Shown one piece after another: positions 52,118-64,000 of a DNA stretch of 64,000 nt. The stretch lies in assembly GCF_001990485.1 (NCBI RefSeq), contig NZ_LBFC01000005.1, positions 1 through 64,000 on the forward strand, given 5' to 3'. The DNA is from Thermosipho affectus (GTDB taxonomy: Bacteria > Thermotogota > Thermotogae > Thermotogales > Fervidobacteriaceae). Below the pieces are notes generated by a model, which ran no database searches, was not told where the DNA came from, and saw only the letters and a list, made by a program, of their open reading frames with translations. Every line of letters begins with the position of its first letter. Within the stretch, counting starts at the first letter, position 1. Both the position numbers and the translations under genes were made by a program.

Positions 52118-52146
52118 AAAAACTCTCTGGCCAACAGAGAGGTTTA
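52115..52146. terminator. Bidirectional terminator between racemase and recombinase-like genes
   Basis: CTCTCTG (52123-52129) with CAGAGAG (52135-52141), five-base loop, A-run on one side and TTT on the other, between convergent genes. Confidence 0.7.
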
Positions 52147-53244
52147 TATTTCGTCTAATTCCAAAAATGCAACCCTTAATTTTCCAACCAAAAATATGAA
52201 AAAGTTCTCCTTATTTCTCCTTTTTACCTCATAACCTAAGTTTTCTATAAATTCTTGCCACTTATCAAGATTTCTAACTAAAAACAATGTATTTAATCTT
52301 GAAAATTTTTCTCCTCTTTTAATATAAGCTGTTCTGGAAACTATATAGGCACTCCCAACTTTTCTTACGGGAATGGATAATTTATTAAAAAATTCCAAAA
52401 CAGGATTTAAGTTATCCACCACCTCAATAGAAAGGATAGTTCTTAGATCACCACTTTCTGATATGTAGCGTGCTATATCCTCAATTGTTTTAGTAGAACT
52501 ATATTTAAATAAATCCATAACATATGGCAAGGAAGGTTGTGCTATTACTTGCCTTGCAACTGCAACGTTTCTAAGTATTTCCACAGAAAGAGGTTTTTTC
52601 AATCTTAAATCTACCTTTTTCTGAAGACCTCTTAACATTAAAGCAAGATAAGAGGGTTTAACAGGTAAACCTTCCGATGTTGAAATCAAATATTCATCCT
52701 TTCCCTCATACTTTTTTAACCATTTATCAATAGGTGGGACAATCTCAACAACAAAATTCCCATTTTCCAAATAAATCTCATTTCCTTTAATATCCGTACC
52801 CTTTAATTTTACAATCTCACCGGATTTTAACCCTAGTAAACCTGCAAGTCCAACTAGCAAAACATACTTTTCATTACCTTTTTTTGCCATCTTCTCTGCT
52901 TCTTTATACAATTTCCAAAAATCCAAATAATTTATCATCTCATATTCTGCTTTCTTATAAGGCACTTTCAAATCTTCAACTACTTCGGAATAAACAAGCG
53001 GGTAAAATCTTTGCAAAAAAGATCTCAATGGCACAAAATACTGTCTCCAAGCCGTCGGTTTATAACTTTCCTTTATTTTCTTTAACCACTTCTTTACAGA
53101 ATCTGTATTTACATTCCCCTCAACAAATTCCAGAAAAGATTCGACCATTGTCATATAATTTCTTTTCGTACTTTCAGATATATTTTGTTTTTCTATGTAT
53201 TCTATAAATTTATCAAGTTCATATTTTACTTTCAATTCTGGCAC
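52144..53244 (-). CDS. Tyrosine-recombinase-like protein with eroded active site
   Basis: 366 residues. The N-terminal 90 residues form a core-binding domain (FIEYIEKQNISESTKRNYMTMVESFLEFVEG). The catalytic domain is recognisable but changed: the first Arg (GLRxSE) is Lys in GLKSGEIVKL, the HxLRH box reads SVEILRNVAV, the GHxS box reads KYSSTKTIEDIARY. Only one Arg and possibly the Tyr remain. About 100 extra residues follow with an SRTAYIKRGEKF stretch. It may be a DNA-binding protein that no longer recombines. No att-like repeats or phage genes are near. Confidence 0.75.
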   Translation of the reverse strand: MPELKVKYELDKFIEYIEKQNISESTKRNYMTMVESFLEFVEGNVNTDSVKKWLKKIKESYKPTAWRQYFVPLRSFLQRFYPLVYSEVVEDLKVPYKKAEYEMINYLDFWKLYKEAEKMAKKGNEKYVLLVGLAGLLGLKSGEIVKLKGTDIKGNEIYLENGNFVVEIVPPIDKWLKKYEGKDEYLISTSEGLPVKPSYLALMLRGLQKKVDLRLKKPLSVEILRNVAVARQVIAQPSLPYVMDLFKYSSTKTIEDIARYISESGDLRTILSIEVVDNLNPVLEFFNKLSIPVRKVGSAYIVSRTAYIKRGEKFSRLNTLFLVRNLDKWQEFIENLGYEVKRRNKENFFIFLVGKLRVAFLELDEI

Positions 53245-55064: not shown

Positions 55065-55796
55065 ATGATAGAAACATACGTCTTTTTCAAAGTAAAAAAT
55101 GACTTTATTATAGAAAACTCGTCTGAAAAATTACACGGATTATTTTTCAAAATACTAAAAAATACCCAAATAAATACAGAAAAATTACATTCCCAAAAAA
55201 ATAAACCATTTTCACTCTCACCAGTCTATGAATATGGTTATGATAAATCTATTACAAAATTTTCCAAAAACAAGTATTTCTTTTTTCGCATTGCTTCTAT
55301 ACAAGATGATTTGATACTTTCATTTGTAAAAGCCCTTACATTAAATAGCACAGAATTATTTCTCGATAAATATCCCATCTACATCGATGAAGTTATAACG
55401 GAAACATACCAAAATAAAGATATTCAAAATGAAATTACCATAAATTTTGTTTCACCTGTAACTTTTAGGGGACCAAATAATATAAATATCCCCATCCCAG
55501 ATCCTTTACACATTATAAATTTTCTAAAAAAATATGGAATAAACGATATAGACTATCCTAAAATTACATATATTGAAGGAAAATCTCACGTAATGAAATA
55601 CTCCTCCTTTAAACTGATTGGTTTTGTTGGAAAAATGAAAATAAAAACACATACCCCTAAATCTTACCTAATATTACACTATCTTGGAACTGGTTATTCT
55701 CATGCAAAAGGAATGGGAGTTACTATAATTGATGCTGCAACAACAGCCAATCAAAAAATTCGATATATTTGGAAAAGGTGGGGAATAAATGCGTAA
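55065..55796 (+). CDS. cas6: CRISPR repeat endoribonuclease Cas6
   Basis: 243 residues after AGGAGGAAGAAAT. It has the two-ferredoxin-fold RAMP organisation: the N terminus MIETYVFFKVKNDF, the SPVYE strand, and near the C terminus the glycine-rich loop LGTGYSHAKGMGVTII, hallmark of the family. Cas6 cuts the array transcript within each repeat to give crRNAs. It is the first gene of the CRISPR region and overlaps the WYL regulator gene by 8 bases; the effector genes follow under a separate promoter. Confidence 0.9.
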   Translation: MIETYVFFKVKNDFIIENSSEKLHGLFFKILKNTQINTEKLHSQKNKPFSLSPVYEYGYDKSITKFSKNKYFFFRIASIQDDLILSFVKALTLNSTELFLDKYPIYIDEVITETYQNKDIQNEITINFVSPVTFRGPNNINIPIPDPLHIINFLKKYGINDIDYPKITYIEGKSHVMKYSSFKLIGFVGKMKIKTHTPKSYLILHYLGTGYSHAKGMGVTIIDAATTANQKIRYIWKRWGINA

Positions 55797-56748
55797 AAAA
55801 TATCTTCGAATATTAAAAATAATAATATACATTCTAAACCAAAAAGAAGTAACAACCAAAGAACTCTCTGAAAAATTCAATGTAAGCATCAGAACTATCC
55901 AAAGAGACTTACACGAAATAGAAAACTTAGGTATAAGTTTAGAAAGAGAAATAGATGGCACAGTAAGAATATTAGAAAACAATCAATTACATCTCAAAGG
56001 TTTAAATTTAAACTTAGAAGAAAAAAAAATACTACTTTTGATGATGAATCTTTCAGAAAAATATTTATATGATTTATTCACAGATACAATAAACGAAGTT
56101 AAAATAAAATTTATTAATTCTTTAGAACCACAGATGAAAGAATTAAATAAAAAAAGATCTACGTTATATAGATTTCTAAAACAAAGACACGAAAACATAA
56201 AATTATGGATAGTAAATTCCATAGAACGTGCCATTTTAGAACAAAGAAAAATAAAAATAAGATACAATCATCCAAAAAAAGGAGAAGAAGAATACGAATT
56301 ATCACCCTATTTATTTTTATTTTCAAAAAATCATTGGTATCTATTTGCACTTGAATCGAAAAAAAACTTTGAAGGTCTTTTCAGATTATCAAGAATCAAA
56401 AAAGTTATATATCTAAACGACAAATTTAAACCTCCAAAAGATTTAGAAGAAAAAATAAATTCAATTTGGGAAACACAATATTCCACTAGAAGATATACTA
56501 TAAAAATTAAATTTAGCAAAGAAGTCGCACAATTAATAAAAGATACAGCAAGACATCCTTCACAAATTATACAAGAATTAGAAAACGGTGAAATATTATA
56601 CACTGTTAAAGTAAGCGGTTACAAAGAAATATTATACTGGATACTTAGTTGGGGAAAGGATGCTGAATTAATAGAACCAAAATGGATGAGAGAAAAAATA
56701 AAAGAAGAAATATACAAAATGCAGAAAAAATATAACAACAACCTCTGA
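55789..56748 (+). CDS. WYL-domain transcriptional regulator of the CRISPR locus
   Basis: 319 residues. An N-terminal helix-turn-helix (KEVTTKELSEKFNVSIRTIQRDLHEIENLGI) is followed by a WYL domain (RKIKIRYNHPKKGEEEYELSPYLFLFSKNHWYLFALE) and a C-terminal WCX-like part ending in AELIEPKWMREKIKEEI. WYL proteins bind ligands or nucleic acids; one (Sll7009) has been reported as a negative regulator of a type I-D locus in Synechocystis. The translational overlap with cas6 supports a role in controlling this system. It is extremely lysine-rich and AT-rich like the other genes here. Confidence 0.9.
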   Translation: MRKKYLRILKIIIYILNQKEVTTKELSEKFNVSIRTIQRDLHEIENLGISLEREIDGTVRILENNQLHLKGLNLNLEEKKILLLMMNLSEKYLYDLFTDTINEVKIKFINSLEPQMKELNKKRSTLYRFLKQRHENIKLWIVNSIERAILEQRKIKIRYNHPKKGEEEYELSPYLFLFSKNHWYLFALESKKNFEGLFRLSRIKKVIYLNDKFKPPKDLEEKINSIWETQYSTRRYTIKIKFSKEVAQLIKDTARHPSQIIQELENGEILYTVKVSGYKEILYWILSWGKDAELIEPKWMREKIKEEIYKMQKKYNNNL

Positions 56749-56826: not shown

Positions 56827-56856
56827 TTGATTTATAAAAAAGATATTTGTTATAAT
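56827..56856 (+). promoter_or_regulatory. Promoter of the cas10d-csc2-csc1-cas3-cas4/1 operon
   Basis: TTGATT (56827-56832), 18-base spacer, TATAAT (56851-56856) preceded by TGT (extended -10). It shows that the effector operon has its own start, separate from cas6-WYL. Confidence 0.75.
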
Positions 56857-56886
56857 ACAAGTAAACCAAAGATTAGGAGTGATAGC

Positions 56887-59256
56887 ATGAATGTAAATTT
56901 AAGAAAATTCCTAATAAAAATTCTACAAAACTATCCTCAGAAACACACAAGCGGTTTAAAAAAAGGTATCCCGTTTTCTATACATTTTGCTAATGTTGGG
57001 CTTATTGCATATCAAATATCCGAAATTTTGCGAAAAATTGGATATTTTAATTTAGAAGATAGTCACACTGTTTTTATTGCAGCCGTAATTCACGATATGA
57101 ATAAAATAACCAATACTTCTATGAGAACAGCAGCTATTAGAGAAAACATAATAAAAGTATTAAAAGAGAACTTTTCAGAAAACGAGGATTTCTGGAAAGA
57201 CAAAATCGATACCATTCAAAACATAATACCTTTACACTCAGTTGACAATCCTGTTGGTTCTAAACTATATATTTCTCAAAAAGAAAAAGTTATGGCAAAA
57301 ATTATCCAGTTTTCCGATACATTTGATTTATTGGATAGTGCTAACCTTGAATACGATCACAACATTTACAAAAAGCTTTTAAATCTTTTAGAAGAACTAA
57401 ATTATTACGTCCCTGAATTTAAATACAACTATCTTGTTTATCATTATTTTAATGACTACAGGGGGGTGTTAACAAATTATATAACCGACGAGATTATAAA
57501 TAAATTTAAAACTACTGTTTTGGCAGTTCCCATTGCAAGATTCAACGATGGAGTAGTCTATTTATGTAACAAAGAAAAATACATTCCAGAATTATTATTT
57601 GAAGACATAGTTCTCGAAACACCAAAAAAAGTTTTCCACAAAATATTTTCAATGGATTATACTTTGCAAAAAAAAGGTAATGAAGTATATTTAAGAGAAG
57701 GGATATTTAACTTTTCTTTAGACGATGCGTTAACCCACATTATTTTCGTTATCAACAATTTGAAAACTTCAGATAGAAATAAAGTTTTAAAAAAAATCAC
57801 TGAAGACTACTTAAAAAAATATTTTGGGAATAAAACAAAGAAAACTATGGAAATATATGAAGAATTCGATTTGATTTTTAATTCAACCAAAGAAATCGAA
57901 ACTATAAAAGAAAAATTAATAAACCTAATAAAAAAACACGAAACACAAAGAAAAATCAAAAATACTTATGTAGACGAGCTAAAAAAATACATTGAAACAC
58001 GCTTGCATCTATCCAATTTACAAAAAAATAATATCTCTACATTCACCATCAACAAATACGGAAAAAATCCTAAAAAAGTTTGTTCAATTTGTGGAAGTGA
58101 ATTTGAAGTTTCAGAAGCTATGTCTGCTGAACTTCCAAGAGGAATAAAACCTCAACTTTTTAGTAATATTCTTCCAGCAAACAAAACAATGGATCCAAAA
58201 AGAAATATCTGTTCAATTTGTAAATTACAATTTATAGCAAACAAAAATAAAAGTTATTCAGCTGATGAAAAAAACGTATATTATGTCCTTATTCCGTATA
58301 ATTATTTTCCAGATGAACTTATAAACGAAATAAAAGAAGAATATATATCAATAAAGTCAAATAGTACTAAAGAAAATAAAAGTAAAGACAACGAAAATAT
58401 CCTTTCGATGTTGGGTATAGAAAGTGAAACAATCGAAGATGGACTATTTGATTATACAAATATAAATATTCCAATAATTAATCCTATAAGATATAAAAAC
58501 TCAAAAAAATACTCTGAAACAGTGTTTATAGCATATGCCAAAGCACTTTATATTCAAAAAAACTTTCCCGTCAAAATCCTTATTACAGGGTATCCACAAC
58601 TTTTAGATGAAGACATACGATTTAGTGAAGATATATTAATTCAAGATCTATCTTTCAAACTCAAAAAAACTTCATCTGAAAGGATATTAAAACTTTATGA
58701 AATATTTAGAAATAATCCCAAAAACTTCTTTGCCAATAAAAACAATTATTTTTACAAAATTTCCACATCTGAACCATTAACAGCCTTTTCAACATATATA
58801 ACAAAAGTATTTGAAACCAAAAAAGATAAAAAGGTAATACTAAATATATTTGAGGCATTATTTGGGGGTGAAAAAATGGAGTATGCAAAAAAGATAAGCG
58901 AATTCATTTTAAAACAACAAGAAAACATATTTAACGCTTCAAAACATCAAATAGTAAAATACTTTGACGTATGCAAAGAAGTATTAAAAAAATTTGAACC
59001 ACAAATTGAATCAGAAGAAGACTTAAAAGCACAATTGTTTTCCAGAATAGAAAATTTAGTCAACAAACCTATAAAAAAAGAAGAGATAATGAATTATATA
59101 GACAACTTTGTTGAATTTGTAAAAGAATTAGAAAATAAAAATCTAGATAAAGGAAGAAAAAAACTCCTCTTAAACTGGAAAAAATATAGGGATTTAATCT
59201 ACGGTTACGTATGGAAAATATATTTTGAAAATAAGGAGGCGAAAAACAATGGATAA
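56887..59256 (+). CDS. Type I-D CRISPR effector large subunit Cas10d (Csc3)
   Basis: 789 residues from ATG 56887 after AGGAGTGAT; the frame is open to 56827 but that part is promoter. An N-terminal HD nuclease domain has H33 (SIHFANVG) and H69-D70 in IHDMNK. The middle has a zinc ribbon CSICG (C399, C402) with CSICK (C442, C445). The rest resembles the Cas10d palm and helical regions without a recognisable GGDD cyclase motif. In type I-D the HD domain on Cas10d, not on Cas3, cuts the target, and the neighbouring Cas3 indeed lacks HD. It is the first gene of the effector operon and overlaps csc2. Confidence 0.9.
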   Translation: MNVNLRKFLIKILQNYPQKHTSGLKKGIPFSIHFANVGLIAYQISEILRKIGYFNLEDSHTVFIAAVIHDMNKITNTSMRTAAIRENIIKVLKENFSENEDFWKDKIDTIQNIIPLHSVDNPVGSKLYISQKEKVMAKIIQFSDTFDLLDSANLEYDHNIYKKLLNLLEELNYYVPEFKYNYLVYHYFNDYRGVLTNYITDEIINKFKTTVLAVPIARFNDGVVYLCNKEKYIPELLFEDIVLETPKKVFHKIFSMDYTLQKKGNEVYLREGIFNFSLDDALTHIIFVINNLKTSDRNKVLKKITEDYLKKYFGNKTKKTMEIYEEFDLIFNSTKEIETIKEKLINLIKKHETQRKIKNTYVDELKKYIETRLHLSNLQKNNISTFTINKYGKNPKKVCSICGSEFEVSEAMSAELPRGIKPQLFSNILPANKTMDPKRNICSICKLQFIANKNKSYSADEKNVYYVLIPYNYFPDELINEIKEEYISIKSNSTKENKSKDNENILSMLGIESETIEDGLFDYTNINIPIINPIRYKNSKKYSETVFIAYAKALYIQKNFPVKILITGYPQLLDEDIRFSEDILIQDLSFKLKKTSSERILKLYEIFRNNPKNFFANKNNYFYKISTSEPLTAFSTYITKVFETKKDKKVILNIFEALFGGEKMEYAKKISEFILKQQENIFNASKHQIVKYFDVCKEVLKKFEPQIESEEDLKAQLFSRIENLVNKPIKKEEIMNYIDNFVEFVKELENKNLDKGRKKLLLNWKKYRDLIYGYVWKIYFENKEAKNNG

Positions 59257-60220
59257 AATAAAGGAATTATTAAAAGGTGGGTACGTAGAAGATGGATCTT
59301 TTCCTTTAAAACCTTTGGGAAAGTATATTCATATTATACTCCGGACAAGAACACTTTCTGAGACAATATTTCGAACAGATGAGGGATTAACAATTGAAAC
59401 AGTAAAAGCTGGAATAAATGATAACAATGAAATTCAAAGAGTAATAATGAGCAAAAGAAAAAGAATAGCTGCAGAAAGAAGAATTGGAAGAGAATTTTTA
59501 ATGAATTATAAATTAAAAGATGAAAGTTGTGAGATTAACCAAAGTATGTGTGGAAGATGTCTAGATTGCACTGTCTATGGTTTTGCAGCTGGAGAAAAAG
59601 GAAAAGAAACAGAAGGGGCACTAAAAAGTAGGGTGATTACAGAAAACGCATACTCTATACTTCCATATGAGATGATAAGTGATGTCAGGACATTTAACGC
59701 ACTTAGCGAACTAGGGACAATGATGGAAAAAAAGGAAAAAAAGGAAAAAATAGAATTAACAATGAGACAATCTCTAGGAGAAAATGAATATATAAAACCA
59801 GAAGTCGATTTCATTGACATTGAAACATTAAAAGACCTTAGATTCGCAGAAGTTTTATACGCTTTAGGTAATATACTAAGAACCAAAAGATACGGGGCTA
59901 TGGATTCAAGATTGGGAAAGGTAAAAAATGAAATAATAGCAATAATAATCTCTGATGCTGAAATTTTTGGTTCTCTTGAATTAACTAAAAAAGTCTGGGA
60001 TAAATTAGAAGTTAAAGAACATATATTAGAAGAAAATATAGTAGATGAAAAAATTTTAGAATCAGTTAAGGAATTACTAGATGGTGAATTTTGTAAATAT
60101 AAAATAGTCGAAAAAAATGATTTAAAAGTATTAAAAGACGAAATTAAAAGTATCTATCTAAAACCAGAAGATAACTTGATATCATTATTTAAAAATGTCA
60201 AATCGATATTTGACAAATAA
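59249..60220 (+). CDS. Type I-D Cas7-family backbone protein Csc2
   Basis: 323 residues from ATG 59249 after AAGGAGG, starting inside the end of cas10d. The family blocks are KPLGKYIHIILRTRTLSETIFRTDEGL, MSKRKRIAAERRIGREFL, the cysteine cluster CEINQSMCGRCLDCTVYGFA, and SRVITENAYSILPY. Csc2 subunits polymerise along the crRNA. A stable hairpin lies between this gene and csc1. Confidence 0.93.
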   Translation: MDKIKELLKGGYVEDGSFPLKPLGKYIHIILRTRTLSETIFRTDEGLTIETVKAGINDNNEIQRVIMSKRKRIAAERRIGREFLMNYKLKDESCEINQSMCGRCLDCTVYGFAAGEKGKETEGALKSRVITENAYSILPYEMISDVRTFNALSELGTMMEKKEKKEKIELTMRQSLGENEYIKPEVDFIDIETLKDLRFAEVLYALGNILRTKRYGAMDSRLGKVKNEIIAIIISDAEIFGSLELTKKVWDKLEVKEHILEENIVDEKILESVKELLDGEFCKYKIVEKNDLKVLKDEIKSIYLKPEDNLISLFKNVKSIFDK

Positions 60221-60250: not shown

Positions 60251-60268
60251 AATTTGAGGGGTGATTCC

Positions 60269-60961
60269 ATGAAGATATATAAAGCAACTCTTGAGACTCT
60301 TGAACCGCTCTTTTTTGCTACAAAAGAATTGGGTGATACCTATGTTACTGAACCTTATATATCAAATTATTCTTTAGCATATACCATATTATCTTTGTAT
60401 GATTATGTAAGACATAATATCCCCACATACAAAGAAGACTTAAAAGATTTAAACGTGTACATTACACCAGCAAAATTTGTAAACTTTAGATGGCAAATGG
60501 AAAATTTTAATTCAACGGGCGAGGGGTATTATTTAAAAATGCTTCAAAATAATTATTCCAATTCTCCAAAACGAAATAATGACAGAGCAAAAAACATACC
60601 TCAAATTGGGAAATTAAAACTAATTTCCTCTGAAAGTATAGCAAAATTCTATGTGATAGATTACTCAAACAATCTAAAATTACCAAAGTATATAAGATTG
60701 GGAAAATTTAACACAAAGTGTCACATAGATTATGAAGAAATTTCTAACATAGAATTAAAAGAAGGAACCTTCTTTTGTAAACAACCACTCAACGTCCTTG
60801 ATCTTCCAAAAAATATGAAACTTTTGTCTTTCAAGATTATTCCCATAAAACCTGTACAAATAATTGAAAAAGCTAAGTTAAGTGGAAATTTCATTTCCAT
60901 AGACAACGATAACATACCGCTTAACATGCACTTTTTTGGAGGGAATTTCAATGAAAATTAA
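60269..60961 (+). CDS. Type I-D Cas5-family protein Csc1
   Basis: 230 residues from ATG 60269 after GAGGGGTGAT. Csc1 markers: ATLETLEPLFFATKELGDTYVTEPYISNYSLAYTIL, YITPAKF and the RLGKFNTKCHIDYE segment. It binds the 5' handle of the crRNA in the effector complex. Its end overlaps the cas3 start by 11 bases. Confidence 0.92.
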   Translation: MKIYKATLETLEPLFFATKELGDTYVTEPYISNYSLAYTILSLYDYVRHNIPTYKEDLKDLNVYITPAKFVNFRWQMENFNSTGEGYYLKMLQNNYSNSPKRNNDRAKNIPQIGKLKLISSESIAKFYVIDYSNNLKLPKYIRLGKFNTKCHIDYEEISNIELKEGTFFCKQPLNVLDLPKNMKLLSFKIIPIKPVQIIEKAKLSGNFISIDNDNIPLNMHFFGGNFNEN

Positions 60962-62984
60962 AAGTCTTGAAATTCCTGTCATCTACGATAAATATGTAAA
61001 ATTCATTCCATTCCATCAAATTGAAACTGCTGAAAAATTAAAAAAATACGATATAGTATTCAATACGTATCCTACAGGCTCGGGTAAAACCAGAGCATTA
61101 CTTAATTCTATCAAAGAATTAACCCCTAAAAAAGTATTAATTATTGCACCAATCAATGTTTTAATAGATCAATACGAAGAAAAAGTAAAACAATTTGTCA
61201 AATCCGAAAAGCTTGAATATGAAGTTGTAACCTTTACATCTTCAAGAATAAAAGAAACAAAAGAAACTTTCGAATCAAATCAACAATTTGTAAGAAAAGT
61301 CCTTGAAAAAAAATCAAAAACTATAATAATATCAAACCCAGACATTGTCTATCTCATATTACTTCAATTTTATGGAAATAATTACAACATTAAAAGAACT
61401 ATGGTTGCAGATTTACTATCAGAAATAGACTTCTTTGCATTTGACGAATTTCACTATTATGATCCCATTCGTAGTTTTCTTGCAATTACATTACTTTTTA
61501 CATATCACCAGATTAAAAGCAAAAATAACGAAACAAAAAAATTTCTCTTCTTATCCGCAACTCCATCTAATACAATTATTAAAGTATTAAAACACTTAAA
61601 TCTAAATTGGTACGAAGTAAAACTCGATGAAGGTCATAACAAATCCAAAGAAAAGTCACTTTCAGAAATAAATTTAGATTTTTCGTTTGGCTCATTAGAA
61701 GATAACATAGATAAGGTAATAAACGAAATAAATAACTATACAAGTGAAAATGGAAAAATTATAATTATTTCAAACTCTCTAAGAAGAATATGGATTTTAA
61801 AGGATAAACTTAACACCTTAGGAGTTGATGCTGGGATAATTATAGGGCCGATAAAATCAAAAGAAGAAAGAAAAAGGAATTTACAAAAAAAGGTAATACT
61901 TGCAACACCTACGGTAGATATAGGATATGATTTTGAAGAAGTTAGACTTTTAATATTCGAAGCTTTTAATCCAGATGAGTTTTTGCAACGTTTGGGAAGA
62001 GCAGGTAGAACTTTGGGAAAAACACTAAATTTTACTCCCAAAGTTATTGCATTTTTACCAAAGACTGTAAAATACAAGTTTGAACAAATATTCCAAGACA
62101 AAAACACTATTACACGAAAAGAACTGGAATCAAAAATAAAAGAGATTTTTTCATCACATAACCTTGATTTTGAACAACTTTACAGAGGACCATTTGTCCT
62201 ACAAATAGCATTCTTTCTTTATAATTTTGAAAAACTTTTCGTCAAAGATGATAAATTTTTCGAAGACTACAAGAAAAACTTCTTAAACCTTTATAAAATT
62301 CCAGTTGATTACACAGTTTTAAAAAATAAATATTTACCATATTTTATAATTTATGTCTATGAAACTCTAAAACAAATTAGCGAAGACAAAGCAAATAAAT
62401 TTATTGAATTTGATTTCAATAAAAAGATACTAAAAAATTTCATCGAAAGAAAAATAGCCGAAAGGCTAATAAATACTAAAAAAATCAATTATTACTTTAA
62501 AGGAATCAAACAATTCTTCGATAATTATATACTAAATTTTAGAATTAACGATATAACAAATGTAAAAGTTGTAGACAAACAAAAAACATTTGGTATAGAA
62601 AAATTTGATTATTCATTAATATTCATACTTGAAAATGCCAACATAGAGAGAATTGATAAAAATACTATATATATCAACGGTATAAGTAGGAAAGAAAAAA
62701 TACACTTTGAAGTTCCAAAAATAATCAACAAAGAATTTTTTGTAACATACCTGACAATCAATGAAGAATTTATAGGACTAGAAGAAAATAATAAATTTTT
62801 AAAAGCTGTCTTCCTTCTAAACAACAAAACAGAAGCCATTGCAAGAAGCTTTGGGTTTTATCCTTCAAGAATCATAATGGGTTCAGAAAAAAAGAAAGCA
62901 CTTTTTGGAGAGCAAGCACTAATAGCAAAAACGTTATTTTCCACGGAAAAACCATGGGATTTTGAAATACTTCCCATTGTCTGA
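60951..62984 (+). CDS. Type I-D Cas3 helicase without HD domain
   Basis: 677 residues from ATG 60951 after GGAGGG. Superfamily 2 helicase motifs: YPTGSGKTRALL (Walker A), a DEFH box (FDEFHYYDP), LSATPSN, ATPTVDIGYDF, and QRLGRAGRT (motif VI). No HD nuclease domain is present, as expected for I-D. It should unwind DNA for Cas10d to cut. Seventeen bases separate it from the Cas4-Cas1 gene. Confidence 0.92.
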   Translation: MKIKSLEIPVIYDKYVKFIPFHQIETAEKLKKYDIVFNTYPTGSGKTRALLNSIKELTPKKVLIIAPINVLIDQYEEKVKQFVKSEKLEYEVVTFTSSRIKETKETFESNQQFVRKVLEKKSKTIIISNPDIVYLILLQFYGNNYNIKRTMVADLLSEIDFFAFDEFHYYDPIRSFLAITLLFTYHQIKSKNNETKKFLFLSATPSNTIIKVLKHLNLNWYEVKLDEGHNKSKEKSLSEINLDFSFGSLEDNIDKVINEINNYTSENGKIIIISNSLRRIWILKDKLNTLGVDAGIIIGPIKSKEERKRNLQKKVILATPTVDIGYDFEEVRLLIFEAFNPDEFLQRLGRAGRTLGKTLNFTPKVIAFLPKTVKYKFEQIFQDKNTITRKELESKIKEIFSSHNLDFEQLYRGPFVLQIAFFLYNFEKLFVKDDKFFEDYKKNFLNLYKIPVDYTVLKNKYLPYFIIYVYETLKQISEDKANKFIEFDFNKKILKNFIERKIAERLINTKKINYYFKGIKQFFDNYILNFRINDITNVKVVDKQKTFGIEKFDYSLIFILENANIERIDKNTIYINGISRKEKIHFEVPKIINKEFFVTYLTINEEFIGLEENNKFLKAVFLLNNKTEAIARSFGFYPSRIIMGSEKKKALFGEQALIAKTLFSTEKPWDFEILPIV

Positions 62985-63000
62985 AAATGGGGTGTTAAAA

Positions 63001-64000
63001 TGTTTCCAGAAATACCTATTTATTCAATAAATGCATATTTATACTGTGAATATAGATATTTTCTCGAAGAAGTTGTTGGAATATTTAAGGAAAATGCCCA
63101 TATATCAGAAGGAAAATACATAAATGAAAAAGAAAGTAAAAACATCTCAACTAAAAATTGGAAAAAAACATCAAAAATATTTGTTTCATCAGAAGAGTAT
63201 GGGATTTATGGATATATAGATAATGTAATAAAAACACCTGATAAAATTAAGATTGTAGAAATAAAAAAAGGTTCTGCCAAAAAGCCTTATGAAAATGATA
63301 TAATGCAAATAATTGCGTATATGATAGCCTATTCTGAAACTTTTGAAATAAAAAAAGAAAGTATAATAGGAGAATTAAATTATAAAGGTTCAAATACAAA
63401 ATTTAGAGTTAAGTTAACGGATAATAGACTCAATAAATTAAAAAATATAATTGACAATATATACGCAATAAAATCTGATAAAATTCGACCTATCCCAAAA
63501 TATAGGAAAAAATGCAAAGATTGTAGTTTATTTGAAATATGTCAACCAATCAATAATGAAAAAGTAAAAATAATGCCTCGTATCGTTGAAAAACAACCTA
63601 TTTTTTTATTTAGCCATGGAATATTCATAGGAAAAAAAGGAGAAAGTTTTCTATTTACTTTAAACAACGAAAAAAACGTGATTCCAGCATACAAAATTTC
63701 ATCAATAAATATTTTTGGAATTTTTACAATATCAAGACAAGCAGTCGAATTGGCAGCAAAATACTCCATACCAATAATTATTAATAATTCAATTTGCAAA
63801 AACATAACTACCATAAATATACCATTTTCAAAAAATAATTTCTTACGAAAAAAACAAGTAGAATTATCTAGCGATGAAAAATTGAAATTAGAGCTCTCAA
63901 AAAAAATGATAATTGGAAAAATAAGAAATATGGAAATCACTTTGAAAAAGAAAAATATAAAAATTAATTATACACCATATATTTATAAAATAAATAAAGC
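63001..64000 (+). CDS. Cas4-Cas1 fusion, truncated by the window end
   Basis: 333 codons from ATG 63001 after GGGGTG; the frame is open to the end of the window. Residues 1-about 185 are Cas4: C16 (YLYCEYRYF), GIYGYIDN, EIKKG, QIIAYMIAY, and C172, C175, C181 in KKCKDCSLFEIC. After a short linker, from about residue 195, Cas1 begins (PIFLFSHGIFIGKKGESFLFTL, ISSINIFGIFTISRQAVELAAKYSIPIII). The active-site residues of Cas1 lie beyond the window. The product should process prespacers and integrate them, probably with a Cas2 encoded further right. Confidence 0.9.

Follow-up and report, generated by a model that had tools for sequence, protein, structure and literature searches.

The window analysed here comprises 64,000 nucleotides and corresponds to bases 1-64000 of a contig of 67,981 bases (G000:C5), so that its right flank could also be read. 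Its right end carries a type I-D CRISPR-Cas operon (Table 1) with a complete class 1 effector. This includes a diverged Cas10d large subunit whose HD domain (residues 52-142) was matched below threshold (0.0023), Csc2/Cas7d and Csc1/Cas5d proteins scoring far above their cut-offs, and a Cas3' helicase of the I-D kind without an HD domain of its own, no HD family being found on the protein by Pfam. Every effector gene upstream of the adaptation genes is of I-D type, with no Csb1/Csb2/Csx17-type effector of I-G among them. A 366-aa protein encoded on the minus strand some 2 kb ahead of the cas operon (52144-53244) carries a phage-integrase N-terminal SAM-like domain and gave no catalytic-domain match.

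Table 1. Features of the I-D locus (window coordinates, continued on the contig beyond 64000)
Feature	Position	Strand	Remarks
cas6	55065..55796	+	243 aa; TIGR01877, 58.2 bits, just below the cut-off of 58.65
HTH-WYL-WCX transcriptional regulator	55789..56748	+	domain matches
cas10d/csc3	56827..59256	+	809 aa, diverged; PADLOC Cas10_Id 8e-34; 7SBA Cas10d 2.7e-4
csc2/cas7d	59225..60220	+	TIGR03157, 3.7e-60
csc1/cas5d	60254..60961	+	TIGR03159, 3.3e-44
cas3' helicase, type I-D	60936..62984	+	TIGR03158, 4.7e-42
cas4-cas1 fusion gene	63000..64000 in window, ends 64550	+	codons 1-333 inside window
Cas4 domain	63009..63551	+	residues 4-184; C16, C172, C175, C181; D74, E87, K89, Q103
Cas4/Cas1 linker	63552..63596	+	about 15 residues; includes ATG codon 192 (63573)
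Cas1 N-terminal domain	63597..64000	+	catalytic domain follows at 64001-64547 of the contig
cas2	64547-64831 on contig		first 4 nt shared with the end of the fusion gene

The reading frame that opens with the ATG at 63000 is still open at the last base of the window and closes at 64550 of the contig, which rules out a stop or frameshift shortly beyond the edge. It encodes a single Cas4-Cas1 polypeptide of 516 aa, on which Pfam places Cas_Cas4 at residues 9-182 (2.3e-19) and Cas_Cas1 at residues 202-467 (3.7e-79). The NCBIfam model cas4g_cas1g (NF049935) spans residues 5-514 (5.4e-109), with a score of 365.1 bits that falls under the model's cut-off of 560 bits. We aligned 11 fusions drawn from I-D, I-G, III-A and I-B-like loci. 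Across this set, the four Fe-S cysteines of the Cas4 half are invariant, as are D74, K89 and Q103 of its PD-(D/E)XK nuclease site, and E87 is nearly so. Invariant too are E344, H408, D420 and E423 of the Cas1 half, which we take to be its active site from the Glu-His-acidic triad of the family. Cas4 is thus followed by Cas1 in one polypeptide with both active sites intact. The preliminary description had proposed such a fusion within an I-D operon and had placed the four Cas4 cysteines correctly; both points hold on the complete gene, with both Pfam families in one frame and the I-D genes upstream.

The Cas1 active-site residues, cas2 and a CRISPR array, which the same description had proposed to look for to the right of the window, are all present there. 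The array is preceded by a leader of 188 nt with a consensus promoter (TTGACA-17-TAGTAT) just ahead of the first repeat, and contains 40 identical copies of a 36-nt repeat, GTTAAAAAACCTAATTCCATAAAATGGAATTCAAAC, separated by 39 spacers of 34-40 nt that are all distinct. Searches for their protospacers in phages and in the genomes of the phylum gave no usable match. At the end of the contig (67940-67981), a 41st repeat is broken by sequence that starts IS21-family elements in relatives. Because another contig of the genome (G000:C6:1-280) begins with the complementary half of the broken repeat followed by two further copies, the array most likely runs on from one contig to the other across an IS21 copy. 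The putative IS21-family element has TG...CA ends and what looks like a duplication of 5 bp (AAATG). At the start of C6, the distal end of the array adjoins a gene recognized by eye as prolyl-tRNA synthetase-like.

Two further CRISPR loci were observed in the same genome. One (G000:C24, L005:8867-13757) has cas1-cas2 beside an MpAgo-type Argonaute of 655 aa and a TPR-primase (AEP-TOTE) protein, which is a CRISPR-associated Argonaute/primase arrangement. The other (G000:C2, L006:4132-12672) is a type III-A locus (Csm1) whose cas1 is flanked by two different cas2 genes. It also encodes a SAVED-domain protein with neighbours of 250 aa and 222 aa, the latter sigma factor-like by eye and with no Pfam match; together these perhaps form a CalpL-T-S signalling set.

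To see how widely the fusion occurs, we surveyed 103 genomes of the phylum of the window (Thermotogota), six of which encode Csc2, at seven loci in all. In six of these loci (G000, G058, G060, G026 and two in G101), Cas4 and Cas1 form one uninterrupted frame beside Csc2, and the five fusions outside the window are 36-47% identical to that of the window. Their recurrence shows that the fusion is neither a chance event nor an assembly error. Away from these six loci, no uninterrupted fusion was found in the 103 genomes. The one I-D locus of the phylum without the fusion (L163, G031:C224) has separate cas4 and cas1 genes. Its Csc2/Csc1 are 77% identical to those of an archaeal locus (L188), which suggests that it was acquired independently, by recent transfer from archaea. 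Within the genus of the window, Csc2 occurs in only this genome among the four sampled.

Outside the phylum, Poribacteria gave Csc2 matches in 31 of 85 genomes, 30 of them above the cut-off. A full-length fusion was found in 18 of these 30, and in 15 it shares a contig with Csc2 within several kilobases, as counted by comparing the positions of the Csc2 and fusion matches. Genomes with Csc2 in Bacillota (11 of 398), in an archaeal phylum (17 of 345) and in Chloroflexota (33 of 350) showed no fused I-D locus, and the genes are separate in all cyanobacterial I-D loci retrieved. For the search of contigs for fusions, a single-protein query gave nothing and an alignment query worked. Two candidates were rejected on inspection: in a Bacillota genome (G397, open frame 612), cas4 and cas1 are separate ORFs, and in a Csc2-bearing member of Methanotrichaceae (G107), the fusion lies on another contig, the I-D cas1 and cas4 being separate. 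The fusion is therefore the normal state of I-D loci in the phylum of the window and in Poribacteria, and no oddity of one genome. That the two genes are usually separate in I-D, as initially stated, is true of most other I-D lineages (Bacillota, archaea, Chloroflexota, cyanobacteria). Among related Thermotogota, the fusion is routine in I-D loci (six of seven), the very outcome that the preliminary description had named as telling against its reading.

We addressed the origin of the fusion with trees that included no V-B sequences. In the tree of concatenated Cas4 and Cas1, the fusions of the phylum form one clade (100/99) outside that of I-G (100/98), and this clade adjoins two I-D loci of Bacillota in which cas4 and cas1 are separate (88/83). 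Analysed alone, the Cas4 half is nearest to the separate-gene I-D Cas4 of Bacillota (96/85), and the Cas1 half leans weakly to I-G (76/77). The effector tree of Csc2 and Csc1 again unites the fused loci of the phylum (100/99). We found no support here for the proposal that the fusion reflects an exchange of modules between subtypes, given a clade of its own outside I-G, a Cas4 half grouping with I-D and effectors in a single clade. Most likely, the fusion of the phylum is a lineage trait made by joining the neighbouring I-D cas4 and cas1 genes in place, with no import from I-G.

Poribacteria appear to have followed another route. Their fusions group in the concatenated tree with two from Peptococcaceae, L089 and L096 (96/81), and the effector tree splits their loci into two distant groups (L092 and L150 versus L078 and L099). 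Because closely related fused Cas4-Cas1 modules are paired with both of these effector lineages, an exchange of adaptation modules within I-D in Poribacteria is well supported. As to the gene neighbourhoods, the fusion lies beside a type III-A effector in L089 (Peptococcaceae UBA3933) and beside an I-B-like effector in L096 (Desulfofundulus). In a further poribacterial locus (L088), it stands beside a mixed-type Cas3 and several large proteins without a family match. Tentatively, and with a little less than even confidence, we propose that I-D gained a fused Cas4-Cas1 at least twice, in place in the phylum of the window and by adoption of a module in Poribacteria, so that adaptation in these systems would proceed without a Cas4-free Cas1-Cas2 half complex.

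A less likely but still credible alternative, the module exchange of the preliminary description, is that the fused module was taken from I-G-type modules, or goes back with them to a single ancient fusion, and that I-D effectors were attached later. The Cas1-only tree, which sets the clade of the phylum beside I-G, would fit this history, as would the AU test, which does not reject all fusions as a single clade (p = 0.223), and the swapping of fused modules elsewhere among I-D, III-A and I-B-like effectors. However, no tree nests the fusions of the phylum within I-G, the Cas4 half sides with separate-gene I-D Cas4, the clade of the fused loci reaches as deep in the effector tree as in that of the adaptation proteins, and an exclusive union with the poribacterial fusions is rejected (p = 0.027). 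Since the Cas1-only tree leans to I-G and a single origin is not rejected, joining in place is the better supported origin and not the sole option.

As for function, the closest match by sequence among solved structures is the Cas4/Cas1 fusion of Geobacter sulfurreducens (7MI4), aligned end to end over residues 2-513 (3.3e-46). A Foldseek search with an AlphaFold model (pLDDT 74.6) likewise returned 7MI4/7MI5 on top over both domains; the linker and cysteine region of this model are poorly predicted, and its domains are arranged with little certainty (rmsd about 10). In I-G fusions, choosing the PAM and cutting it off at a later step is the task of Cas4 and integration that of Cas1, with spacers inserted in a defined orientation (PMC10274657). 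By analogy with the Geobacter enzyme, the fusion most likely acts as a PAM-selecting prespacer processor and integrase. Very probably, this is a complete I-D locus in which adaptation relies on Cas4 and Cas1 joined in one polypeptide. The fusion would be a trait of the lineage, and the enzyme would form a complex and follow steps like those of Geobacter. The fusion, its intact catalytic residues and domain architecture, the operon, leader and array, and their conservation were seen directly; how the complex is built and in which order it acts we infer from the Geobacter and Methanosarcina Cas4/1 enzymes. Every Cas1 would carry its own Cas4 along in a (Cas4/1)4-Cas2(2) complex. The Cas4 domain would recognize the PAM on one end of the prespacer, keeping that end uncut while Cas1 integrates the opposite end next to the leader; Cas4 would then remove the PAM, and Cas1 would join the freed end at the spacer side, giving the spacer orientation that the I-D effector requires. 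The fixed Cas4:Cas1 ratio suggested earlier follows from the fusion itself as 1:1 synthesis, and by the same analogy it may influence PAM selection.

A different product would arise if translation also began inside the gene, at ATG codon 192, or if the linker were cleaved, so that the fusion gave free Cas1 as well and with it a Cas4-free Cas1-Cas2 half complex like the one proposed for the I-D system of Synechocystis. The separate-gene I-D model does employ Cas1-Cas2 without Cas4 (PMC10212523), the phylum's fusions have a methionine at the linker position of codon 192 in five of six cases, and the relative G101 has AAGAGGAAAATA, a possible ribosome site, ahead of it. However, we found no Shine-Dalgarno-like sequence before the linker ATG in the window, G058 or G060, G026 has no start codon at this position, and in other fusions the position is merely the residue ahead of a conserved proline. 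The check for an internal start proposed in the preliminary description thus yielded one methionine with no conserved ribosome site, which makes such a start unlikely and free Cas1 improbable. That the locus is instead decaying, with an intact adaptation gene and an array no longer extended, is very improbable: the putative IS21-like insertion in the leader-distal array, the lack of protospacers in phages or the phylum and the presence of Csc2 in one of four genomes of the genus would fit, but the 40 repeats before the insertion are all identical, the spacers are all distinct, and the leader, promoter and every cas gene are intact.

We compared the single-polypeptide Cas4-Cas1 enzyme of the window with known systems. 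The I-G (formerly I-U) Cas4/1 proteins of G. sulfurreducens (7MI4, 7MI5) and Methanosarcina barkeri (PMC10274657) share with it the order of domains, the Cas4 cysteines and nuclease residues, the Cas1 active site, the short linker and a cas2 gene directly downstream, at about 25-30% identity. In contrast to them, it belongs to an I-D operon, lies outside the I-G clade and scores 365 bits against the 560-bit cut-off of the I-G model. I-D loci of Poribacteria (L078, L092, L099, L150 and others) likewise have a fused Cas4-Cas1 in an I-D operon; these fusions fall on a different branch, with the III-A and I-B-like fusions of Peptococcaceae. Two of them (L078:9884-11638 and L092:9986-11620) reach 606 and 624 bits with cas4g_cas1g, above its cut-off, so that naming a subtype from a Cas4-Cas1 fusion misleads.

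We found no description of an I-D Cas4-Cas1 fusion in the literature searched, the scope of which did not extend to Almendros 2019, the main paper on Cas4-Cas1 fusions, or Haverkamp 2018, a study of Thermosipho; a prior mention is possible. Fusions have been listed for I-B, I-U and V, and the modules of I-A, I-B and I-D are known to shuffle widely (Hudaiberdiev 2017, PMC5704561). I-D Cas4 has been treated as a single protein, and its loss alters spacer length in unfused I-D and not in fused I-G (PMC9419969). In the literature searched, I-D Cas4 is described as a protein of its own, and we regard the fusion as a variant of a known enzyme that has so far been little described.

The I-D system of Synechocystis PCC 6803 (pSYSA) has the same effector set, homologous Cas4 and Cas1 and the order cas4-cas1-cas2; it makes Cas4 and Cas1 as two proteins, whereas the locus of the window has them fused. 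Both Cas1(2):Cas4(1) and Cas1(2):Cas2(2) complexes have been reported for it (PMC10212523), the second of which a 1:1 fusion would make impossible unless free Cas1 were present. Adaptation in I-D is modelled on Synechocystis, for which these two asymmetric complexes are proposed, and a natural 1:1 fusion lets the need for asymmetry be tested. A fused I-D system, from a source that may be thermophilic and would then give stable proteins, would also part the effect of fusion from that of subtype on spacer length.
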